A stretch of DNA of 64,000 bases, from positions 558,001-622,000 of the forward strand of contig NZ_CP109178.1 in NCBI RefSeq assembly GCF_036248255.1, given 5' to 3'. The DNA comes from Streptomyces sp. NBC_01717 (GTDB taxonomy: Bacteria; Actinomycetota; Actinomycetes; Streptomycetales; Streptomycetaceae). This document shows positions 10,844 through 22,743 of the stretch, in pieces; position 1 is the stretch's first letter; every line of letters begins with the position of its first letter. Under the pieces are notes generated by a model, which did not search any database, had not been told where the DNA came from, and worked only from the letters and a program-made list of their open reading frames with translations. The position numbers and the translations under genes are program-made.

Positions 10844-11194
10844 ATGATCACCGGTGGACACGTCATCATTTACAGCCGTGACGCAGAAGCGGACCGGGCC
10901 TTCTTCCGGGATGTGCTGGAGTATCCGCACGTCGATGCGGGAGGCGGCTGGCTGATCTTCAAGCTTCCGCCGACCGAGATCGCCGTGCATCCCACGGACG
11001 GTCCGGAGACGCAGGAGCTCTACCTGATGTGCGACGACATCAGCGCGACGGTGAAGAACCTGGCCTCGAAGGGCGTGGAGTTCACGCAGGCAGTCACCGA
11101 TGCGCGCTGGGGACGGCTGACCAGGTTCCGTCTGCCGGGCGGCGGCGAGGTGGGCATGTACGAGCCCCGCCACGAGCGAGCTACCGAGCTGTAA
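10844..11194 (+). CDS. VOC family (glyoxalase-like) protein
   Basis: 116 aa from ATG 10844, the first Met of the VOC-like sequence; the open frame upstream overlaps the neighbouring minus-strand gene. A single beta-alpha-beta-beta-beta pair: GGHVIIYSRDAEADRAFFRDVLEY, then IAVHPTDG, ELYLMCDDISATVKNLASKGVEF and PGGGEVGMYEPRH. His and Glu at the expected metal positions are present. VOC members bind small molecules or act as metal-dependent isomerases or dioxygenases; the substrate is not evident. Confidence 0.75.
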   Translation: MITGGHVIIYSRDAEADRAFFRDVLEYPHVDAGGGWLIFKLPPTEIAVHPTDGPETQELYLMCDDISATVKNLASKGVEFTQAVTDARWGRLTRFRLPGGGEVGMYEPRHERATEL

Positions 11195-14232: not shown

Positions 14233-14415
14233 TCAGCGCTTGAAGGCGTCCTTCGCCTTCTCCTTCGCCTGACGAACGTCACCCTTGGCCTTCTCGGCGC
14301 GACCCTTGGCCGTCAAACCCTCGTTGCCTACCGCGCGGCCGGCGGTCTCCTCCACCTTGCCCTTGGCCTGTTCTACCTTGGCCTTGGCCTTCTGGTCCTT
14401 GGCCACGACACTCAC
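14233..14415 (-). CDS. CsbD family stress protein
   Basis: About 60 aa from GTG 14415, chosen because GAGAAG lies 6 nt upstream; a TTG at 14442 would add nine residues. Lys/Glu/Ala-rich with the CsbD pattern KAKVEQAKGKVEETAGRAVGNEGLTAKGRAEKAKGD. CsbD proteins are small, mostly helical, abundant under general stress (SigB regulon in Bacillus), and of unknown biochemical role. Its place near the Asp23 envelope-stress locus fits a stress-gene neighbourhood. Confidence 0.82.
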   Translation of the reverse strand: MSVVAKDQKAKAKVEQAKGKVEETAGRAVGNEGLTAKGRAEKAKGDVRQAKEKAKDAFKR

Positions 14416-14684
14416 ATCCCGCTTCTCAAACTCGATGGACAACTTCTAGCTCAACCGTAAATGGCTCCTTGGACGCCATCTACCGACCGGTCGGACCGAA
14501 ACGGGATTATGTGAAGTCGGGGCGAGATCGAACACCCTCGGCCGACGCCCCCCATCAGCGCTGCCGCGCCCGACGCCCCGCACGGCTCCGACAGCGGTTC
14601 GAGGGCGTGATCCGGCGGGACAGTGAGGCAGGGGGACGGCGACGACCGCCATGGTGACGGGCGCGGAACTTCTGGGCCCGCGGG

Positions 14685-15041
14685 TTACCAGGGGCCGTGG
14701 TAGACCAGGCCCAGAACCAGGGCGGCCGCCGCGGTGGCGAGGAACACGATCCCGCCTACGATGTTGCGGGAGCCCACCCGCAGGTGGGCGATGATTGCGC
14801 CGATGAAGTACAGCACGAGACCGGAAGCGGCGAGGGTCCCCAGGAACGGCACGGCGAGCCCGGCCAGCAGCCCCACGGTGCCCGCTGCCAGCAACATGCC
14901 AAGCACCGGCACATACTTCCGGGGCACGCCTTTCATGTCCGCCTGGGTCTTGGGGTATTCGTGGCCTATCAGGTAGGTGACGGCGGCTGCGCCGTTGAAG
15001 ACCGCACCGAGGATGGTGACCGTGACGTAGGCGGCGAACAC
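14685..15041 (-). CDS. DoxX-like membrane protein
   Basis: 118 aa from GTG 15041, preceded by GGAGAAAAC; a GTG at 15080 would add 13 non-family residues. Four hydrophobic segments (near 1-20, 45-65, 68-85, 95-115) and the family opening AAYVTVTILGA followed by PRKYVPVLGMLLAAGTVGLLAG fit the DoxX/DoxX-like family of small integral membrane proteins linked to redox and stress. No partner gene is adjacent. Confidence 0.75.
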   Translation of the reverse strand: MFAAYVTVTILGAVFNGAAAVTYLIGHEYPKTQADMKGVPRKYVPVLGMLLAAGTVGLLAGLAVPFLGTLAASGLVLYFIGAIIAHLRVGSRNIVGGIVFLATAAAALVLGLVYHGPW

Positions 15042-15307
15042 GTTTTCTCCGTTTCTGTCGGGAATAGTGCTGCTGGGCACTCCGTCGTGGGATGCCCTTC
15101 TCCTGGACGACGAGCCGGCGACCCGATTTGTGACATCGGCTGGCAGCCGGGCGTGCCAGTGCTGCCGAAGGCCTTCTAACCGTTGAGCAAGACCGCGAGA
15201 TGGTGCTGTCGGGGCTGGGGTGCTTCCTGTCCGGTGGTGATCGTCCCGGGTCGCCCCGGCACGACACCAGGGCGGCCAACCGACCGTACGCGCTACTCCT
15301 GGAGCTC

Positions 15308-15905
15308 GAACAGGGTTGTGATCAACGGGCGACCCGGATGAGGTCTTTGATCCAGATCATCGAGGCGCGCGGGTGCGGGCCGGCGAGGTAGCTATCTGGG
15401 GCCTGTCGTATCGGGTGACGATGCCTCGCCGCGCCTTGAGCTTGTTGATCTGGCATTCCACGGTGTTCCGCTCCGAGTAGGGGTCGGAGCCGTGACCGAG
15501 GGGCCGACCACCCCCGGAGAGCCCTGCTTCTTCCGGTGGCGGCTCGGCCCCTCTTCTCCGGGATGACTGCCTCGATGCCGCATCTACGCAGCCGCCGGGC
15601 CCAGTTGCCGCAGGACGGGTAGGCCTTGTCCCCGGCAACCGCGTCCGGCCGGGTGCTGCGGCGACCGACTAGCCCTCGGACCCGTATCCGCCCCAGCACG
15701 GGGATCAACTGCGGGCTGTCCGCGCGGCCTTCCCCGAGGTCAGGATGAACGCCATTGGACGGCACTTCCGGTCGGCGGCGACGCGGAGAGGGAGATGAAC
15801 TCCCGCTCCGCCTGCGACAGTTACCGTCGGATACAAGAAGACCTACCGGAACAGCCCCGCCACAAGGGCGAATCCGCAGGTTGATCACAACTCCATGCAC
15901 GCCCT
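15308..15905 (-). mobile_element. internally deleted IS5-type element
   Basis: On the minus strand this matches the intact element at 46064-47159. The left end (15905 inward) and the first codons of the transposase up to GVH (…GSEFI in the intact copy) are followed directly by …LAADRKCRPMAFILTSG, so about 480 bp of the gene are missing. The remainder carries at least two frameshifts (frames ending in IEAVIPEKRG, then ERNTVECQINKLKARRGI, then DSYLAGPHPRASMIWIKDL). It reaches a degraded right end near 15308. No functional transposase remains. Confidence 0.75.
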
Positions 15906-16055
15906 GGCGGCGCTTCGTTCGCCGGGCAGGTCCTTTATCGGGCCGTCATTCCAGCCTTGCAGCTCAATACTGCGGCATCGCCTCCTGCCGACAGGACAAG
16001 GCAGGAGACGGACCGTCACCGTGTGGGCCACCTGGTCCCATGTTGCATGCCGGGA

Positions 16056-17051
16056 TCATTCCTCCCGGTCATCGGCGGCCTCGTCCTCCCACTCGTCTTC
16101 CTCCAAGTCCTCTCCGTCGTCCTCTTCTTCGTCCTCTTCTTCGTCCTGTTCTTCGTCCTCTCCTTCGTCCTCAGCATCGCCGTCATCCGCGTCTTCGTAC
16201 TCGTCGTCGTTCTCCGAGTCCTCGGCCTGTGCTGCTTCTTCCTCTTCCATGGCTTCTTCGTGTGACACGACGACTTCGCCGTCTCGGATCTCGCCCCGCC
16301 AGCCTTCCGGCTCGTCCCCGGTGAGAGTGACGTACCGCTGGAAGTGCTTGAAGTCCAGCCGGACCCGGCGGCCCTGAGCCCGCCAAATATTTCCGGTCTT
16401 TTCGAAGAACCCGGACGGGTAGTACTCCAGGAGCAGGACGATCCGCGTCAGCGTCGGCGCCAGTTCGTGGAAACTTACGGCACCCTTGGTCGTCCCCTTG
16501 GCCCCTTCGGAGGTCCAGACGATCCGGTCGTCCGGAATCTGTTCCTGAACAGTCGCTTTGAAGCTGCGGGATGAGGGTCCGACCTTCACCTTCCAGTCGC
16601 TGGACATCTCGTCGCTCATCGAGACGCTGCGAACGCCCTTGGTGAAGCTGCTGAAATCCTCGTACTGGGTCCAGTAGTCGTAGGCCGTGCGAAGAGGCAC
16701 GCCGACATCGAGGACCTCAATGATGTTCATGCTCTTGCTACTGCCGGACTTGCCCTTGCCGCCGCCGAACGCCTCCTTGACCTTGCCCACGACACTGTCC
16801 TTGACGCCTTTGGCCTTCTCGGACAAGAACGCCTTCACGGGGGATTCGCCCCCGAGGACGCGCGAGCCGACTTTGAGCAGTGACCCGCTGTCGGCGGCAT
16901 CGGTGAGCTGCTCCGTGACATCCTTCAGCTTGTCACTGGCCTTCTCCGCGAGCCGTCCCACCTGTGCTTCCACGAAACCCGACAGCGCCTCGCTCAGTCC
17001 CCCCGCCCCCGGCCCCTGCGCCTCTCGCTCCTTCGTCTCCTTCCCAGCCAT
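16056..17051 (-). CDS. SRPBCC protein with acidic C-terminal tail
   Basis: 331 aa. Residues 1-107 are helical and charged (LSEALSGFVEAQVGRLAEKASDK), 108-250 form a polyketide-cyclase/START-like SRPBCC domain (IIEVLDVGVPLRTAYDYWTQYEDFSSF, …IVWTSEGAKGTTKGAVSFHEL), and 265-331 are almost wholly Glu/Asp. SRPBCC proteins of this kind sit in actinobacterial gas-vesicle clusters, yet no GvpA is in the window. The upstream gene ends 6 bp before its start, so both are one transcript. It could act as a hydrophobic-ligand binder or an assembly chaperone; this is inference. Confidence 0.72.
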   Translation of the reverse strand: MAGKETKEREAQGPGAGGLSEALSGFVEAQVGRLAEKASDKLKDVTEQLTDAADSGSLLKVGSRVLGGESPVKAFLSEKAKGVKDSVVGKVKEAFGGGKGKSGSSKSMNIIEVLDVGVPLRTAYDYWTQYEDFSSFTKGVRSVSMSDEMSSDWKVKVGPSSRSFKATVQEQIPDDRIVWTSEGAKGTTKGAVSFHELAPTLTRIVLLLEYYPSGFFEKTGNIWRAQGRRVRLDFKHFQRYVTLTGDEPEGWRGEIRDGEVVVSHEEAMEEEEAAQAEDSENDDEYEDADDGDAEDEGEDEEQDEEEDEEEDDGEDLEEDEWEDEAADDREE

Positions 17052-17057
17052 GTCGGG

Positions 17058-17846
17058 TTACCTCCCGCGATCGGCGCGCTTGGATGTCTTCTTCGCCGGC
17101 CTCCCTGAGGACGCCGCCCTCTTCGCGGGAGCCTGCTTCTTGGGCGCAGACTTCTTCGCTGGGGCTGCCTTCTTCGCGGCCGGCTTCGTCGCAGAGGACT
17201 TCTTCCGGGATGGCTCCTTAGACGCCGCTCCGGAAGAGCTCCGGGCAGCGGGGGCCCTCTCTCGCCGTGACGCAGTGCCCCTCTCGGTCCGCCCCGGCTT
17301 CCGGGAGCTTCTCCGGCGCTGCGGGCGTTCGGGTTCAGGCTCCTCCTCCTCTTCCTCCTCTTCCTCTTCTTCCTCCTCCGGCCCCTCTTCCTCCGGCTCC
17401 TCTTCCTCTTCCTCCTGCTCCGGCCCCTCTTCCTCCTCCGGCTCCTCTTCCTCTTCCTCCTCCGGTTCCTCTTCCTCTTCCTCCTCCGGTTCCTCTTCCT
17501 CCGTGTCCTCCTCCTCCGGCTCAGCTCCCTTCTTCGCACCCAGGGCCGTCGTGCGGTCACGGAGCGTGTCTGCGAGCGTCCCCATGCCGCGAGTCGCAGC
17601 AGCTGTCACTGCCTTGCGGCCGGCCTCGAGGAGTTCCCCTTTCATCTGGTCCTGCAGTTCGGCCACCTGCGGGATCTCCCCCAGCCTGCGCATTCCCTCG
17701 GTAGCGAGCTGGCGTGGCTCAAGGCCGAACCGTTTGCCCGCCAGATAAGTCCCCACGCTCAGCGCGAGTTTGCCTTTCTTCGTGCGGCCCAGCACGTATC
17801 CGCCGACAAGGGCAGCGGCGAGAGTCATCTTGGTCTGATCGTCCAT
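17058..17846 (-). CDS. poly-Glu / Lys-Ala-rich polyampholyte protein (gas-vesicle-accessory-like)
   Basis: 262 aa from ATG 17846 (AAGGTGA 7 nt upstream). Residues 3-50 (MTLAAALVGGYVLGRTKKGKLALS…GLEPRQL) have a glycine-rich hydrophobic helix typical of a short family found beside SRPBCC genes in actinobacterial gas-vesicle loci. Residues 50-105 are amphipathic helix, 109-174 almost pure Glu with Pro breaks, and 175-262 strongly basic with histone-H1-like KKAAPAKKSAPKK repeats. The strand opposite shows spurious poly-Ser frames. It may bind nucleic acid or form condensates; no activity can be assigned. Confidence 0.65.
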   Translation of the reverse strand: MDDQTKMTLAAALVGGYVLGRTKKGKLALSVGTYLAGKRFGLEPRQLATEGMRRLGEIPQVAELQDQMKGELLEAGRKAVTAAATRGMGTLADTLRDRTTALGAKKGAEPEEEDTEEEEPEEEEEEEPEEEEEEEPEEEEGPEQEEEEEEPEEEGPEEEEEEEEEEEEEPEPERPQRRRSSRKPGRTERGTASRRERAPAARSSSGAASKEPSRKKSSATKPAAKKAAPAKKSAPKKQAPAKRAASSGRPAKKTSKRADRGR

Positions 17847-18367
17847 GCGCACGTCACCTTCAACGTTTCCGCGAGACCCGCCTGTGCTGCGCAAAGTGCA
17901 GCTCTGTGGCTGTCAGTGGTCTCTACCCTGGCGGCGGCCACTGCCGATTTGGGAGCGCAACGAAGGGGGAACCTAGTCCTGCTCACTTCGGGCGGCGCCG
18001 GCCCTCTGCAGCCCGGCGGTTCCGGCCACGGCTGTTGGTCGCCTCGGCGCGAGAGCCATCACTCGATGCCGGACCTGTACTCAACTCATTGCCGGTCCTG
18101 TACTCACCAGTCTCGCCCGTATCGCGGCAGTCGCATCTTGGAATGCCCTGCCTCCTGATACGGGGCGCGCAGTTGTGGCATCCACGGTTGCGGTCGTCGG
18201 CGTCAGCGCCGACCACCGCAGTTGTCCCGGTGTGTGGCAGATACTTGATGTGCCGTGACGTTGGGCGTGGCCGTTGTGTCCTTCTACTGCGAGGCGGGTT
18301 CTGCCGGTATGCCAGCAGGTCCGTGAGAAGGGTCCGACAGCCTGCCCGGCGCAGGAAGGTTGTGCAG
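17847..18367. other. 521-bp divergent intergenic region, promoter area
   Basis: It separates the polyampholyte/SRPBCC unit (minus) from the sigma/Asp23 operon (plus) and so should hold both promoters. No convincing ORF, palindrome or sigma-70 consensus stands out. The target promoter of the ECF sigma factor encoded next door might be here. Confidence 0.45.
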
Positions 18368-18958
18368 GTGTCGTCGTCTGCCGGTGTCGGTTCACAGCCC
18401 GCCTCCCCGGCCCCGGAGGTGGTACTGGACGATGCCACGTTGGTGGTCCGCGCCCGTGACGGCGACATGCGCGCCTTCGAGGTGCTGGTGCGCCGTTATC
18501 AGGGGCCGATGTACCGCTTGGCGGTGCATATGCTCGCGAGCCGTGGCGACGCCGAGGACGTGGTGCAAGAGGTGTTCCTGACCGCTTGGCGGCGGCTGGG
18601 GCAGTTGCGGGACGACGCAGCGCTCGTGGGCTGGCTCTACCGGACGACGAGTAACCGGTGCCTGAACATCATCCGGGCACGTAAACCCGTCGCGGAGACT
18701 GACCTCGACAATCGCGAATCCGCCGAGGCGGCTGGATCACCGGAGCGGGCGGCGCAGGTCAGCGAGCAGATGATCGCGCTCGCTGCCGCTTTGAAGCAGC
18801 TGACGCCCGAGCAGCGAGCATGCTGGCTGTTGCGGGAGGTGCACGGTCGCTCCTATGAGGAGATCGCCGGAGTTATGGGCACGACCCGTACGGCGGTGCG
18901 TGGACGCATAGCGCGCGCTCGAGTGCAATTGGCGGAGGCGATGGCTCCATGGAAATGA
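18368..18958 (+). CDS. ECF-type RNA polymerase sigma factor
   Basis: 196 aa from GTG 18368, chosen over GTG 18362 because AGGAAGG then lies 8 nt upstream. Sigma region 2 spans about residues 24-95 (FEVLVRRYQGPMYRLA, DAEDVVQEVFLTAWRRL, core-binding and -10 recognition) and region 4 about 135-192 (LTPEQRACWLLREVHGRSYEEIAGVMGTT, -35 helix-turn-helix). There is no region 3. First gene of the Asp23 operon and overlapping by 10 nt the gene for a protein with an anti-sigma zinc motif, its probable partner. Confidence 0.85.
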   Translation: MSSSAGVGSQPASPAPEVVLDDATLVVRARDGDMRAFEVLVRRYQGPMYRLAVHMLASRGDAEDVVQEVFLTAWRRLGQLRDDAALVGWLYRTTSNRCLNIIRARKPVAETDLDNRESAEAAGSPERAAQVSEQMIALAAALKQLTPEQRACWLLREVHGRSYEEIAGVMGTTRTAVRGRIARARVQLAEAMAPWK

Positions 18959-19506
18959 GCGAAGCTCAGGGCTATGTGCTGCCTTGCGGCCGCGATATGG
19001 AGACGGTGTGGGAGCGGCTCGATCCGGCCGACGCCGCCCTGGCTGACACCCATGATCCCACCTGCGAGCACTGCTCTGCGGCTCGGCAGAGCCTGGTGAT
19101 CCTGCAGGAGGTGACCGGCGAGCTCGCCTCGGCGGAGATCGGACCTCCGCTGGGCTTGGCCGGACGGATCATGTCTGCGGTGCGCGCAGAGGTCCGCCGT
19201 CACCACATGCTCGCGCTGCCCGGCGCGGAGCCGGGCGGGGTGCAGATCAGCGAACAAGCGGTCGCTGCCGTGCTGCGATACGCCGCCGATTCGGTCGACG
19301 GTGTGCGCGCACGGCACTGCCGGATTTCCGTCACAGAGACCGAGGGCGCGGTGGAGGTGGAGATGAGCCTCGCGGTGGCCTACCGCAGGTTTTCCGCCGA
19401 CGCCGTCGACGAGGTGCGCGAGCGGGTCCGAGCAGCCACTGCAGCACGGGTCGGAATAGCCCTGGTGCGTCTGGACCTGACCGTGGAAGACCTGTACGAC
19501 GCATGA
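18949..19506 (+). CDS. anti-sigma-like ZAS motif fused to an Asp23-like domain
   Basis: 185 aa (GGAGG 10 nt before ATG 18949; ATG 18955 is the alternative). Residues 35-42 read HDPTCEHC, the exact H-x3-C-x2-C of zinc anti-sigma (ZAS) domains, in an N-terminal helical stretch. From about residue 96 (GVQISEQAVAAVLRYAADSVDGV) to the end it has the Asp23/Gls24 beta-alpha pattern seen in the downstream genes, with no membrane segment. Its gene overlaps the sigma gene. The likely job is to hold the sigma factor and to couple it to the Asp23 layer; the domain join is what I see, the mechanism is inference. Confidence 0.7.
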   Translation: MEMSEAQGYVLPCGRDMETVWERLDPADAALADTHDPTCEHCSAARQSLVILQEVTGELASAEIGPPLGLAGRIMSAVRAEVRRHHMLALPGAEPGGVQISEQAVAAVLRYAADSVDGVRARHCRISVTETEGAVEVEMSLAVAYRRFSADAVDEVRERVRAATAARVGIALVRLDLTVEDLYDA

Positions 19507-19550
19507 AACCCCGCGATCGGGCAGCAGACTGTCGAGAGAGGCTGAAGCAC

Positions 19551-19988
19551 ATGGACACGGTGTTCGTTACGTCAACGACCGTGCCGGACGACGAGACACG
19601 GGGTCCCCGTGCACAGTGGGTGATCGCCGAGCCCGTGATCGCCGCGCTTGCCGCCCACGCCGCTGTCGGCGTCCCTGGTGTTGTGCGGCTCGAACCCGGC
19701 CTGACCGGACTCGCCTCCCAGGTGGCGCGTTCGGTACGCCAGAAGATCAACGGCCTTGCCCCGGCCCCGACCGAGGGTGTGAGAATCACGGTCGACCACT
19801 CAGCCGTACCGTCGAACCTCAGCGCCTCCATCGACATGGTCGCCTCCGGGCATGACCAGGCTGGGGCCGTGGGGCGGGCCGTTCAGCGTGAGGTCACGCG
19901 TGCCGTCGCCGATGCCACGGGCCTCGCTCCGCAGGCCGTCGTGGTGTCGATCATGGACATCGACTTGTATGGGACCGGTGCGTGGTGA
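19551..19988 (+). CDS. Asp23/Gls24 family envelope stress protein (1)
   Basis: 145 aa from ATG 19551 (GAGAGAGG about 10 nt upstream). An ATG at 19503 overlapping the previous stop would add 16 residues and is possible. Asp23 domain: VIAEPVIAALAAHAAVGVPGVVRLEP, VRITVDHSAV, VGRAVQREVTRAVADATGLAPQAVVVSIMDI. Asp23 proteins of Firmicutes are abundant peripheral membrane proteins held by AmaP and respond to alkaline or cell-wall stress. One of three paralogues in this operon. Confidence 0.78.
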   Translation: MDTVFVTSTTVPDDETRGPRAQWVIAEPVIAALAAHAAVGVPGVVRLEPGLTGLASQVARSVRQKINGLAPAPTEGVRITVDHSAVPSNLSASIDMVASGHDQAGAVGRAVQREVTRAVADATGLAPQAVVVSIMDIDLYGTGAW

Positions 19989-20305
19989 CTCCGAGATCAG
20001 AACTGACACGCTCACTTCTGGCTGTCCTGGGCAGGATCCCCGGTCTGCGCCCGGCGACCCCCGCCACCACCCACGTCGGCTCACGCGTGCCGTGGAACCT
20101 CGACACCATGGCCGTCGGCATCGACGACGAACTCATCGAGATCCGCGTCGTCGCCCTCGCCCTCCCTCTTCCTCCGATCCTGCGCGAGGCCGAGGCCGCC
20201 CTGAACGCAGCGCTGAGGGAGACCCCGTGGAAGGACGCTCGTCTGCGCCTTGTCGTCACCGACATCGATGCCACCGCCCTCACCCCCTCTCGATCACGCG
20301 AGTGA
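19982..20305 (+). CDS. small conserved protein of the Asp23 operon
   Basis: 107 aa; the start overlaps the previous stop (GTG 19982, or GTG 19985 which gives a GTGA overlap). Middle and end read DTMAVGIDDELIEIRVVALALPLPPILREAEAALNAAL and RLRLVVTDIDATAL, again a beta-alpha-beta layout that could be a minimal, degenerate Asp23-like unit. No membrane segment. Function known only by context. Confidence 0.6.
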   Translation: MVTPRSELTRSLLAVLGRIPGLRPATPATTHVGSRVPWNLDTMAVGIDDELIEIRVVALALPLPPILREAEAALNAALRETPWKDARLRLVVTDIDATALTPSRSRE

Positions 20306-20409
20306 CGCGGGTGCCTGAAAGGCCATGACGTTCTCCCCTGGCACGGGTCGTTCATATGTGACGAGCGCGAAGCCGCCTCGTCCAGAGCCAGGAAACCGAG
20401 GAGAGCACC

Positions 20410-20910
20410 ATGACGAACCCGGCCACCACGAATACTGCCGTGCCCTCCACTTTTGCCGCAGGCGACACGGAGAAGAGTGCCACCAGCACACCGGAAGCTT
20501 CCTCTGCACAAGCCTCCGGGCAGGGCTCCACCACCATCGCCGATGTCGTCGTCCAAAAGATCGCCGGTCTCGCCGCCCGCGAGGTACCCGGCGTATATGA
20601 GCTGGGTGGCGGAGCGGCACGGGCGTTCGGCGCAGTCAAGGGGCGTATCCCCGGAGCCTCCGCCAGCGCCGGACAAGGCGTCTCCGTCGAGGTCGGTCAG
20701 AAGCAGACGGCCGTGGACCTGGAGATGCTGGTCGAGTACGGAGTGTCTATACCCGAGTTGGCCAAGGACGTCCGCAACAACGTCATCGACTCCGTCGAGC
20801 ACATGACGGGCCTGGAAGTCGTCGAGGTCAACATCAGTGTCAATGACGTCCACATCCCCGCTGACGACAGTGACGGCGGCGACCAGGACACCGGCGGCCG
20901 CGTCCAGTAG
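20410..20910 (+). CDS. Asp23/Gls24 family envelope stress protein (2)
   Basis: 166 aa; SD GAGGAG before ATG 20410. Residues 1-40 are a Thr/Ser/Ala-rich flexible tail; 43-155 are the most canonical Asp23 domain of the three: IADVVVQKIAGLAAREVPGVYELG, GVSVEVGQKQTAVDLEMLVEYGVSIPELAKDVRNNVIDSVEHMTGLEVVEVNISVNDVHI. The 104-bp gap before it, against overlaps elsewhere, leaves room for a second promoter. Expected to coat the inner face of the membrane with its paralogues. Confidence 0.85.
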   Translation: MTNPATTNTAVPSTFAAGDTEKSATSTPEASSAQASGQGSTTIADVVVQKIAGLAAREVPGVYELGGGAARAFGAVKGRIPGASASAGQGVSVEVGQKQTAVDLEMLVEYGVSIPELAKDVRNNVIDSVEHMTGLEVVEVNISVNDVHIPADDSDGGDQDTGGRVQ

Positions 20911-21067
20911 CCGTTCCCGGGCCCCGGCACCGCACACACCGTGCGTCACCCACCGCGGGCACGGGGGCCTGCCCACGGGGTCCATGCGGCGCACGGTCCA
21001 TGTGTGCGACCTCGCACACCCCGGCTCAATGCCGCATGGCAACGTACGCGCACCAAGGAGAAATGAC

Positions 21068-21277
21068 ATGACGTCCACTCAGATGGGTCTCCTGACAGGG
21101 CTCGTCCTCGGCCTCGCCGCCGCGTTCGGCGGGTTCGAAGCCTTTCTCATCGTCCTTGTTCTCGGGACGGTCGGGCTGTTGGTAGGGCGATACCTCGACG
21201 GCAAGCTCGACCTCGCCCAACTCACCGGCCGTGACAGGGACGACTTCCATGGACACCGCGATCACCACGTCAGCTGA
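21068..21277 (+). CDS. small membrane protein (DUF2273-like)
   Basis: 69 aa; very strong SD AAGGAG before ATG 21068. Two close hydrophobic stretches (residues 6-22 and 25-41) end at LVGRYLDGKLDLAQL, after which it is hydrophilic. Small double-span proteins of this form (DUF2273) accompany Asp23 genes in many Gram-positives. It overlaps the next asp23 gene by 29 bp, so the two are coupled. It may help anchor the Asp23 layer. Confidence 0.7.
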   Translation: MTSTQMGLLTGLVLGLAAAFGGFEAFLIVLVLGTVGLLVGRYLDGKLDLAQLTGRDRDDFHGHRDHHVS

Positions 21278-21650
21278 AGGTGAGTCCGGCGACGCGCAGC
21301 GAGGCCGGACAACGATCTCCGACCGCACCGTGGAACGCATCGCCGCCCGGGTGTTGACCGAAGTCGAGAACATCGGCGGAGCAGCCGGCCGGCTGCTGGG
21401 CATAGCGGTCCCAGGAGAACACGCCGAAGACTCGGCCCGGGTTGCCGCGAAGGTCAGCGGCGACTCAGTTGCGGCGCTCGATGTTCGCCTGTCCGTCGCC
21501 TATCCAAAATCCGTCGCTCACACCACCGAAGACGCCCGCGCACGCTTGGTACGCCGCGTTGCGGACCTCACCGGTCTGACCGTGACCCGTGTCGACATCA
21601 CCGTCACTGCACTGCGCGCTCCCGACTCACCGACCAGGAGAGTCCGATGA
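21249..21650 (+). CDS. Asp23/Gls24 family envelope stress protein (3)
   Basis: 133 aa from ATG 21249, inside the end of the previous gene (AGGGA about 8 nt upstream; GTG 21231 possible). Asp23 domain: ISDRTVERIAARVLTEVENIGG, ALDVRLSVAYPKSVAHTTEDARARLVRRVADLTGLTVTRVDITVTAL. Ends in an ATGA overlap with the DUF6286 gene. Third paralogue; different N-terminal tails suggest that they are not interchangeable. Confidence 0.82.
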   Translation: MDTAITTSAEGESGDAQRGRTTISDRTVERIAARVLTEVENIGGAAGRLLGIAVPGEHAEDSARVAAKVSGDSVAALDVRLSVAYPKSVAHTTEDARARLVRRVADLTGLTVTRVDITVTALRAPDSPTRRVR

Positions 21651-22174
21651 AATGCCGGCCCCGCCGCACCATCCCGGCCACTCTCACCGCGCTGGTCCTG
21701 CTGGCGGCCTGCGTGCTGATCGCCGTCGTCGCCATTCAGCTGATCATCGGTCAGAGCCCGCTCTTCAGTTACCGCTCCGTCACTGACACCCTGCACAGCA
21801 CTCACTGGAGCGACACCACCACCCTCATTGCCGGCGGCGCAATTGCCCTGCTCGGGCTACTCCTGCTGGTCGCGGCACTCCTGCCGGGGAAACCGACCGT
21901 TCTGCCCCTGACCGGTGACCTGGACGCCGGCATCACGAGGCGTAGCCTGCGCCGCGATCTGCAGAACACGGCTTCGAGTGTCGACGGGGTCAGCAGAGCA
22001 AAGCTGAAACTGGGCCGTCGAACGATCGTCGCCCGCATCCGCACCGACCGGACCAACACCGCGGGGCTCACCGATGCCGTGCGCGCCGCCCTGGGTCGGC
22101 GCCTCGACCAGGTCACCCCGCTGATCCGTCCGGCCGTGAAGATCCAGCTCCGTGCCACCAGGAACGCACCATGA
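21647..22174 (+). CDS. DUF6286 membrane protein
   Basis: 175 aa, ATGA overlap with the preceding asp23 gene. Two membrane helices (about 9-32 and 60-82) flank a 25-residue extracytoplasmic loop, followed by a cytoplasmic domain (ITRRSLRRDLQNTASSVDGVSRAKLKLGRRTIVARIRTDR…GLTDAVRAALGRRLDQV) whose beta-alpha-beta-alpha pattern echoes Asp23. This is the actinobacterial DUF6286 arrangement and parallels AmaP, giving the operon two membrane anchors. Confidence 0.75.
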   Translation: MKCRPRRTIPATLTALVLLAACVLIAVVAIQLIIGQSPLFSYRSVTDTLHSTHWSDTTTLIAGGAIALLGLLLLVAALLPGKPTVLPLTGDLDAGITRRSLRRDLQNTASSVDGVSRAKLKLGRRTIVARIRTDRTNTAGLTDAVRAALGRRLDQVTPLIRPAVKIQLRATRNAP

Positions 22175-22743
22175 CCAGCCTCAACCGCCCAGCCCGCCTC
22201 AACCGCACCCTTCTCGCCGCGTTCGGCGTCCTCCTGCTCGCCTCAAGCTCCTTCGCCGTGGCCGCTCATTTCGGCCACCTCACCTTCCTGGATTCGGACG
22301 CCACACTTGCTCCCAGCATCGCCGAGCCGCCCACCTGGGCACTCTGGATTGCTGCCGCCACCGCCATCGTTCTGGGGCTGCTCATCCTGCGCTGGATCGC
22401 CGCGCAGCTGACCCGGCGCCCCAAAACCCACACCTGGCACCTCGAGCAGAACCCCGAGCAGGGCAGCACCGAACTGGCTGCGAACACTGCCACCGCCCCC
22501 TTCCTCAGGGAAGTCGCCGCCTACCCAGGCGTCCACCACGCCCGCGCCACGCTCGCCGGAACCCGCCAAAACCCCACCCTCGCAATGGTCATCAGCACTG
22601 AGCAGGGCGGGGATCTCACCACCATCAACCATCACCTCAACACCCACGGGCTCCCCCGGCTCCGTCAAGCGCTGGACCTCGACACCCTCCCGTTCACCGT
22701 CGAGTACCGCTTCACCACCCACGCCGGCATCCGCGCACGCTAG
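22171..22743 (+). CDS. amaP: alkaline shock response membrane anchor AmaP-like
   Basis: 190 aa, ATGA overlap with the DUF6286 gene. Two membrane helices (about 11-33 and 54-76) separated by a short outer loop, then a soluble C-terminal domain (TATAPFLREVAAYPGVHHARATLAG…LTTINHHLNTHGLPRLRQAL). AmaP in Staphylococcus tethers Asp23 to the membrane by this topology. Last gene of the operon, with a hairpin 29 bp beyond its stop. Confidence 0.78.
   Translation: MTSLNRPARLNRTLLAAFGVLLLASSSFAVAAHFGHLTFLDSDATLAPSIAEPPTWALWIAAATAIVLGLLILRWIAAQLTRRPKTHTWHLEQNPEQGSTELAANTATAPFLREVAAYPGVHHARATLAGTRQNPTLAMVISTEQGGDLTTINHHLNTHGLPRLRQALDLDTLPFTVEYRFTTHAGIRAR

Follow-up and report, generated by a model that had tools for sequence, protein, structure and literature searches.

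How is a protein layer that lines the bacterial membrane adjusted, and can its genes carry their own regulator? In Staphylococcus aureus, asp23 and amaP are controlled by the general stress factor sigma-B, which is encoded elsewhere. The two genes share one operon, and Asp23 sits under the membrane through the anchor AmaP (PMC6954212). A related gene set in Streptomyces sp. NBC_01717 raises the question in another form: in the window, by which we mean the whole stretch of 64,000 nucleotides that was analysed (contig NZ_CP109178.1, positions 558,001 to 622,000 of the forward strand), an operon at 18368..22743 encodes Asp23-family and AmaP-like proteins together with an extracytoplasmic function (ECF) sigma factor. 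It differs from the staphylococcal operon in its putatively dedicated ECF pair, its several Asp23 paralogues and its two AmaP-like proteins. We propose, with a probability of a little over 70%, that this module is a sigma/anti-sigma pair dedicated to a membrane-associated Asp23 layer and that it is autoregulated in most of the Streptomyces lineages examined. The first-pass annotation had suggested such wiring, which is now backed by a recurrent gene neighbourhood, a pattern of putative zinc ligands, a promoter-like motif shared by sigma and layer genes, and a natural fusion.

Gene families and the anti-sigma candidate

The nine-gene, one-strand operon described from the letters alone was confirmed with Pfam and NCBIfam, all nine open reading frames lying on the + strand within 18368..22743. 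Its genes, and the two features of the second gene on which the argument turns, are as follows.

18368..18958, + strand: ECF sigma factor of 196 amino acids, with regions 2 and 4 (PF04542 60.2 bits, PF08281 53 bits)
18949..19506, + strand: predicted anti-sigma factor, with an N-terminal zinc anti-sigma (ZAS) motif and a C-terminal Asp23 domain
18985..19074, + strand: stretch from the C13 codon to the C42 codon, with the four putative zinc ligands C13, H35, C39 and C42
19318..19320, + strand: Cys124 codon (Asp23 domain), a residue retained in most sigma-linked relatives
19503..19988, + strand: Asp23-domain protein 1 (PF03780 36.8 bits)
19982..20305, + strand: protein of 107 amino acids found in the one-strand lineage, without a family
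20410..20910, + strand: Asp23-domain protein 2, the most canonical layer protein (PF03780 107.1 bits)
21068..21277, + strand: DUF2273 small membrane protein (PF10031 24.7 bits, just under the cut-off of 25.4)
21231..21650, + strand: Asp23-domain protein 3, start uncertain, overlapping the preceding gene (PF03780 42.7 bits)
21647..22174, + strand: DUF6286 membrane protein, homologous to the AmaP-like anchor (PF19803 97.8 bits, cut-off 35)
22171..22743, + strand: AmaP-like membrane anchor (NF033218 34.7 bits over 3-164 of 166, cut-off 55)

The first product combines sigma regions 2 and 4 in a short protein, as is characteristic of ECF factors, and scores 97.1 bits with TIGR02937 against a cut-off of 42.9. 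Three of the proteins exceed the curated Pfam cut-off for Asp23 of 28 bits, in line with the three Asp23 proteins initially counted, but a fourth Asp23 domain had been overlooked in the ZAS-motif protein encoded at 18949. There the Pfam score is 24.4 bits, under the cut-off, whereas a profile built from 67 sigma-linked relatives aligns with the layer Asp23 family over 110 columns (hhalign 98.1%, E 6e-13) and with the AmaP-like family at 93.8%. On this homology the C-terminal half of the 18949 protein is an Asp23 domain, and the operon encodes four Asp23-domain proteins. They are encoded with an AmaP-type anchor, with the caution that the AmaP model NF033218 stays under its cut-off both for the last product and for the DUF6286 protein (34.0 bits). 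As judged by homology, both membrane proteins are AmaP-like, the DUF6286 and AmaP-like families matching each other at 98.3% (hhalign); the AmaP-like and layer Asp23 profiles gave no direct match to each other. The 107-amino-acid protein has no Pfam or NCBIfam match at E up to 1 and at most a weak likeness to the Asp23 domain of the anti-sigma candidate (hhalign E 2e-4, probability 21%).

The junctions had been described as mostly 4-bp overlaps, which holds for four of the eight: sigma/ZAS (if a second ATG at 18955, an alternative start of the 18949 gene, is used), ZAS/Asp23, Asp23/DUF6286 and DUF6286/AmaP. Two further junctions overlap by more, one by 7 bp and one by up to 47 bp where the gene start is uncertain, and the remaining two are gaps of 104 and 157 bp.

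ZAS proteins carry the pattern HxxxCxxC, with a fourth ligand, Cys or His, 23-26 residues earlier, and are encoded downstream of an ECF sigma gene (PMC4960319). The window protein, encoded directly downstream of its sigma gene, reads HDPTCEHC at this place. Its four putative ligands C13, H35, C39 and C42 are invariant in a 24-row alignment of relatives and occur in 64, 59, 65 and 65, respectively, of the 67 sigma-linked relatives (these counts and those for Cys124 leave out L010 and the repeats L096-L099). HxxxCxxC is present in 42 of the 43 Streptomyces loci defined below, the exception (L009) having no sigma gene nearby; among the remaining loci, L083 has a varied form of the pattern. The same alignment conserves R73, M75, V78, R79 and R83, which would fall at the position expected for helix 4, the helix through which class I anti-sigma domains touch sigma region 2 (PMC7406223). 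These features make the 18949 protein a candidate for binding both zinc and sigma. Like RsrA, ChrR and RslA (PMC4960319), it joins HxxxCxxC to a Cys further upstream and is encoded directly behind an ECF sigma gene, but its Cys-His spacing is shorter than theirs, and its C-terminal Asp23 domain has no counterpart in RsrA and a cupin-like domain in its place in ChrR.

A neighbourhood recurring in seven families

When the 18949 protein was searched against 150 Streptomyces genomes, 56 matched, some through the Asp23 half alone. At 46 places the match reached the N-terminal part; 40 of these were fetched and scanned with profiles made from the window proteins, the six left out being G121, G120, G138, G112:C811, G135 and the window itself. 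This yielded 43 Streptomyces loci with a relative above 100 bits, a count that takes in the window, L008 and L009, the last being the second cluster of the window's own genome. In 42 of the 43 the ZAS-Asp23 gene is immediately preceded by a sigma gene on its own strand, L009 being the exception. Within the fetched stretch, 33 of the 42 sigma-linked loci have a DUF2273 layer gene; the layer is divergent in 30, and the other three loci (the window, L008 and L041) are of the one-strand type. Of the nine loci without DUF2273 nearby (L070, L064, L074, L079, L080, L054, L051, L053 and L073), L070 has its layer genes about 6 kb away, as seen in the longer stretch L098, while L064, L074, L079 and L080 have an Asp23 gene on the opposite strand and L054 lies at a contig end.

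A search of 394 genomes across the class gave 58 with a match at E up to 1e-20, among them 28 from other genera. These 28 genomes hold 29 such places, of which 24 were used (G323, G352, G423, G554 and G566 were left out); together with G184 from a separate search they make up 25 non-Streptomyces loci in six families. In 24 of them sigma lies directly upstream of ZAS-Asp23, and in the one remaining, L135, the two are fused. Of the 25 loci, 22 have a DUF2273 gene close by, some of these genes (those of L085 and L150, for example) scoring low. The neighbourhood is thereby common to seven families, that of Streptomyces included. Of 198 genomes sampled across the phylum, 9 had a match at E up to 1e-12, and all 9 belong to the same class.

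The first-pass annotation had held that a gene order lacking conservation would mark a chance cluster. The one-strand order of the window proved to be conserved, recurring in five further loci (L008, L041, L081, L082 and L131), and we therefore regard a chance cluster as very unlikely. Three of these, L081, L082 and L131, come from one genus of another family (f6) and share the order down to the gene for the 107-amino-acid protein, relatives of which were found, among the scanned loci, in these five only. In a FastTree phylogeny of concatenated proteins, the three form one clade with the window, L008 and L041 (support 0.994), apart from the ordinary Streptomyces loci; since the f6 one-strand loci cluster in this way, the tree suggests transfer between family f6 and Streptomyces, in either direction.

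Layer clusters whose anti-sigma relative lacks the N-terminal part provide a comparison, and in 11 of 11 the fetched stretch contains no sigma gene. Ten were picked for the missing N-terminal part and the eleventh is L009, so the absence of zinc ligands is by choice and the absence of a sigma gene alone is the result. Cys124 lies in the Asp23 domain, hence outside the N-terminal criterion by which the sigma-less loci were picked, and it is present in 58 of the 67 sigma-linked relatives as opposed to none of the 11 sigma-less rows, two of which (L087 and L088) are wrong-frame picks. The cluster in the window's own genome (L009:5112-7948, at 7.08 Mb) is a second Asp23/AmaP set with no sigma gene in the fetched stretch and a divergent anti-sigma relative that lacks the zinc part; the other ten sigma-less loci, picked for the same lack, resemble it.

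At L135 the two partners are joined. A 326-amino-acid frame (L135:5983-6960, - strand) consists of the ECF sigma factor followed by the Asp23 domain of the anti-sigma candidate; the zinc segment is missing, while the last helix of the N-terminal part is kept with the Asp23 domain. The frame stands directly behind an Asp23-DUF2273-Asp23-DUF6286-AmaP series on the same strand, and a purine-rich GAGGAGGAG stretch precedes its ATG. A protein search returned an identical protein from Thermobifida alba, named there as an RNA polymerase sigma factor. Another genome of that genus encodes a fusion that is 71% identical over residues 1-318, without stops; no scanned locus other than L135 has one. Because the fusion is kept in two genomes, we argue that the Asp23 domain acts on sigma, and because it is kept without the zinc segment, that zinc is probably not an indispensable sensor. 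ECF factors with a fused regulatory domain are reportedly also represented by the ECF41 type. The Thermobifida protein is like that type in having its regulatory domain on sigma but unlike it in that the fused domain is Asp23.

A promoter-like motif before sigma and layer genes

A two-box word count before the sigma genes found one pair over-represented, on both strands, and the corresponding motif, GCGTNAC-N15/16-GTGTCCAAC, precedes both the sigma and the layer units. We trained two-box matrices on 40 sigma-facing or on 35 layer-facing regions (L054 was left out) and scored each against the other set, with 600 windows as controls. With the sigma-trained matrix, 24 of the 35 layer-facing regions exceeded the 99th control percentile, where 0.35 are expected, and with the layer-trained matrix 23 of the 40 sigma-facing regions did. 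Keeping one locus per 70% identity cluster left 19 of 26 layer-facing and 18 of 29 sigma-facing regions above the threshold. Dinucleotide-shuffled regions passed in 1 of 175 and 2 of 200 cases, and wrong box spacings gave 0-3 of 35 and 1-4 of 40.

ECF promoters have AAC and GTC cores. The motif was at one stage read as GGACAC-N16-TCACGC, on the wrong strand; we dropped that form for the reverse orientation, which is our own reading, because the AAC/GTC cores then resemble ECF promoters and the sites precede the genes that they face. A loose count with up to 3 mismatches was likewise dropped, its 38 and 40 of 43 regions being little better than the 27-37 in shuffles. Two sites concern the window's operon.

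18252..18284, + strand: GCCGTGAC-N16-GTGTCCTTC, predicted to be a sigma-dependent promoter and ending 83 bp upstream of the start codon of the sigma gene (18368)
20322..20353, + strand: possible weak internal promoter GCCATGAC-N15-GGGTCGTTC before the layer genes

The upstream site scores 17.4 with the sigma-trained matrix, for which the window belongs to the training set (99th control percentile 13.1), and 10.4 with the layer-trained matrix, for which it does not, a value between the 95th (8.8) and 99th (11.1) percentiles. Its boxes are kept in L008 and L041, where the spacer differs. The internal site scores 8.3 with the sigma-trained matrix, a value reached by 1.3% of the 600 equal-length controls; the layer-trained model favours another place in the same gap. 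Its block is kept in L008 and L041, in a degenerate form and by the sigma-trained model only. In L081 and L082, which lie outside the training sets, the site before sigma scores 22.1 and 21.2, and a second site, at the same place as 20322..20353 in the window, precedes the first layer gene with 20.8 and 19.3. The layer genes of the sigma-less cluster L009 have no motif site before them.

The operon had been called self-contained, and the distribution of the motif bears this out in part. Exact matches to CGTNAC-N15/16-GTGTCCAA number 52 in the 150 Streptomyces genomes, compared with 12 for a reversed control pattern; 21 of the 52 lie within 2.5 kb of sigma/ZAS genes and 31 elsewhere, an enrichment that measures concentration and is no independent test, the motif having been derived from the same loci. 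In the window's own genome a looser pattern gives 36 matches, 35 of them besides the operon, against 15 for the reversed control, which is too noisy to name regulon members. We consider it likely, if unproven, that the operon is self-contained.

Two motif copies and one group of neighbouring genes were seen in passing. A match scoring 18.9 at 10853-10885 (- strand) lies inside a doubtful open reading frame with no clear gene start behind it. In L131 a copy scoring 20.1 stands about 680 bp before the anti-sigma gene on the opposite strand and points away from the operon, towards what may be a further target gene. Beside the window's operon, at 14233-17852 (- strand), are genes for a CsbD-like protein, a DoxX-like protein, a polyketide cyclase/lipid transport domain protein whose tail is long and acidic, and a protein that contains long Glu-rich runs.

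The predicted circuit and its rivals

We propose the following circuit. The 18949 protein would hold the ECF sigma factor encoded at 18368 through its N-terminal domain, which is putatively zinc-binding, and, because it carries an Asp23 domain, could plausibly join the Asp23 proteins and AmaP-like anchors that the operon encodes. A change in the state of the layer or membrane would be the signal that releases sigma, and the freed factor would transcribe from GCGTNAC-N15/16-GTGTCCAAC promoters before its own gene and before the layer genes, yielding more layer and more anti-sigma factor. A more specific version, which we put forward tentatively and at less than even odds, makes the Asp23 layer itself the sensor: the anti-sigma factor would be a modified subunit that co-assembles with Asp23 and AmaP, the amount or integrity of the layer would be read as free sigma in a homeostatic loop, and the fusion genus would have shortened the circuit. 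In staphylococci, deletion of asp23 or amaP strongly induces the cell-wall stress response (PMC6954212), a finding that suits a sensor of layer state.

Several observations weigh against a dedicated sigma/anti-sigma pair of this kind. L051, L053 and L073 have sigma and ZAS-Asp23, but the longer stretches fetched for them (L096, L097 and L099) contain neither DUF2273 nor DUF6286 nor an AmaP-like gene, and only weak Asp23 hits were found there. The five loci of family f38 lack HxxxCxxC, the His being replaced, and one of them, L085, lacks most of the putative zinc ligands, with sigma still adjacent; four of the five are also among the nine sigma-linked rows without Cys124. The Cys-His spacing is 22 in the window and mostly 19-22 in relatives, compared with 23-26 for ZAS proteins. 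Pfam zf-HC2 matches 1 of 24 family members, weakly, and a profile search of the PDB gave no significant hit, its top match being an unrelated zinc finger and its second, aligned over the motif at a non-significant E of 0.16, chain B of 3hug, which we take to be RslA. As to the promoter, the motif seed was chosen after both strands had been seen, and most loci of the Streptomyces group L042-L058 have a weak sigma-facing motif or none. Outside Streptomyces, in a test whose control windows may overlap promoter regions, few sigma-facing regions carry the motif (2 of 25 above the 99th percentile, 4 of 25 above the 95th), and the layer-facing motif passes these percentiles in 3 or 6 and in 11 or 13 of 22 regions, depending on the model. 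By these scores the motif drifts with phylogenetic distance, and because the layer-facing form is the commoner one outside Streptomyces, control of the layer is better supported there than autoregulation.

An RsrA-like thiol switch could account for much of the same pattern: the Cys-His-Cys-Cys zinc site would sense disulfide stress, zinc would be expelled and sigma freed, and the Asp23 domain would merely tether the protein at the layer. The invariance of all four putative ligands in the 24 rows, including an upstream Cys comparable to the one on which the redox response of RsrA depends (PMC4960319), speaks for such a switch, as does the partition of Cys124 between sigma-linked and sigma-less rows, the two wrong-frame picks among the latter allowed for. 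Yet the f38 loci keep sigma adjacent without the His and mostly without Cys124, the L135 fusion retains the last helix and the Asp23 domain but has dispensed with the zinc segment, the zinc of such domains can have a structural role, as in RsiW (PMC7406223), and the layer genes form no antioxidant set. We judge this switch unlikely on balance. Quite improbable, in our estimate, is that the 18949 protein is an ordinary subunit of the layer whose zinc site is structural, sigma being controlled transcriptionally only or by another protein: its homology to layer Asp23 and the zinc-less relatives in sigma-less layer clusters would fit, but barring f38 and L135 the zinc part is present beside sigma, sigma is absent in all 11 clusters without the zinc part, the gene follows sigma directly in 42 of 43 and 24 of 25 loci, and in L135 sigma is fused to the Asp23 domain. 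That the genes are chance neighbours without shared regulation is next to inconceivable: 9 of 42 Streptomyces and 3 of 25 other loci have no DUF2273 gene in the examined stretch, but of those nine one has its layer about 6 kb off, four have an opposite-strand Asp23 gene and one is at a contig end, and seven families share the neighbourhood along with a cross-tested motif.

The dedicated sigma/anti-sigma pair has known relatives. A 2022 review describes ECF286 and ECF292 as encoded beside soluble Asp23-family proteins that are predicted anti-sigma factors without experimental data (PMC8999054). As in the window, an ECF sigma gene there adjoins an Asp23-family predicted anti-sigma factor; the link between sigma and the Asp23 family is already known, which weakens the suggestion of the first-pass annotation that the wiring is a different one. 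The review's passage does not mention a ZAS motif on the Asp23 protein, an AmaP/DUF2273 target operon or a promoter, and it lists the ZAS-regulated groups ECF270 and ECF271 apart from ECF286 and ECF292 (PMC8999054). Titles and abstract beginnings in the literature searched, a coverage outside which most subscription journals fall, included none on a ZAS-Asp23 protein, its promoter or a sigma-Asp23 fusion.

The precise mechanisms of staphylococcal Asp23 are described as still to be elucidated (PMC6954212). The Streptomyces loci offer material for study in the predicted promoter, which could drive a reporter, in a zinc-less and sigma-less paralogous cluster that could serve as a control, and in the natural fusion. 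If the inhibitor of this sigma factor does contain an Asp23 domain through which the layer acts, it would provide a transcriptional read-out of layer state in tractable Streptomyces, and could let these bacteria adjust the lining of their membrane to the condition of the cell.

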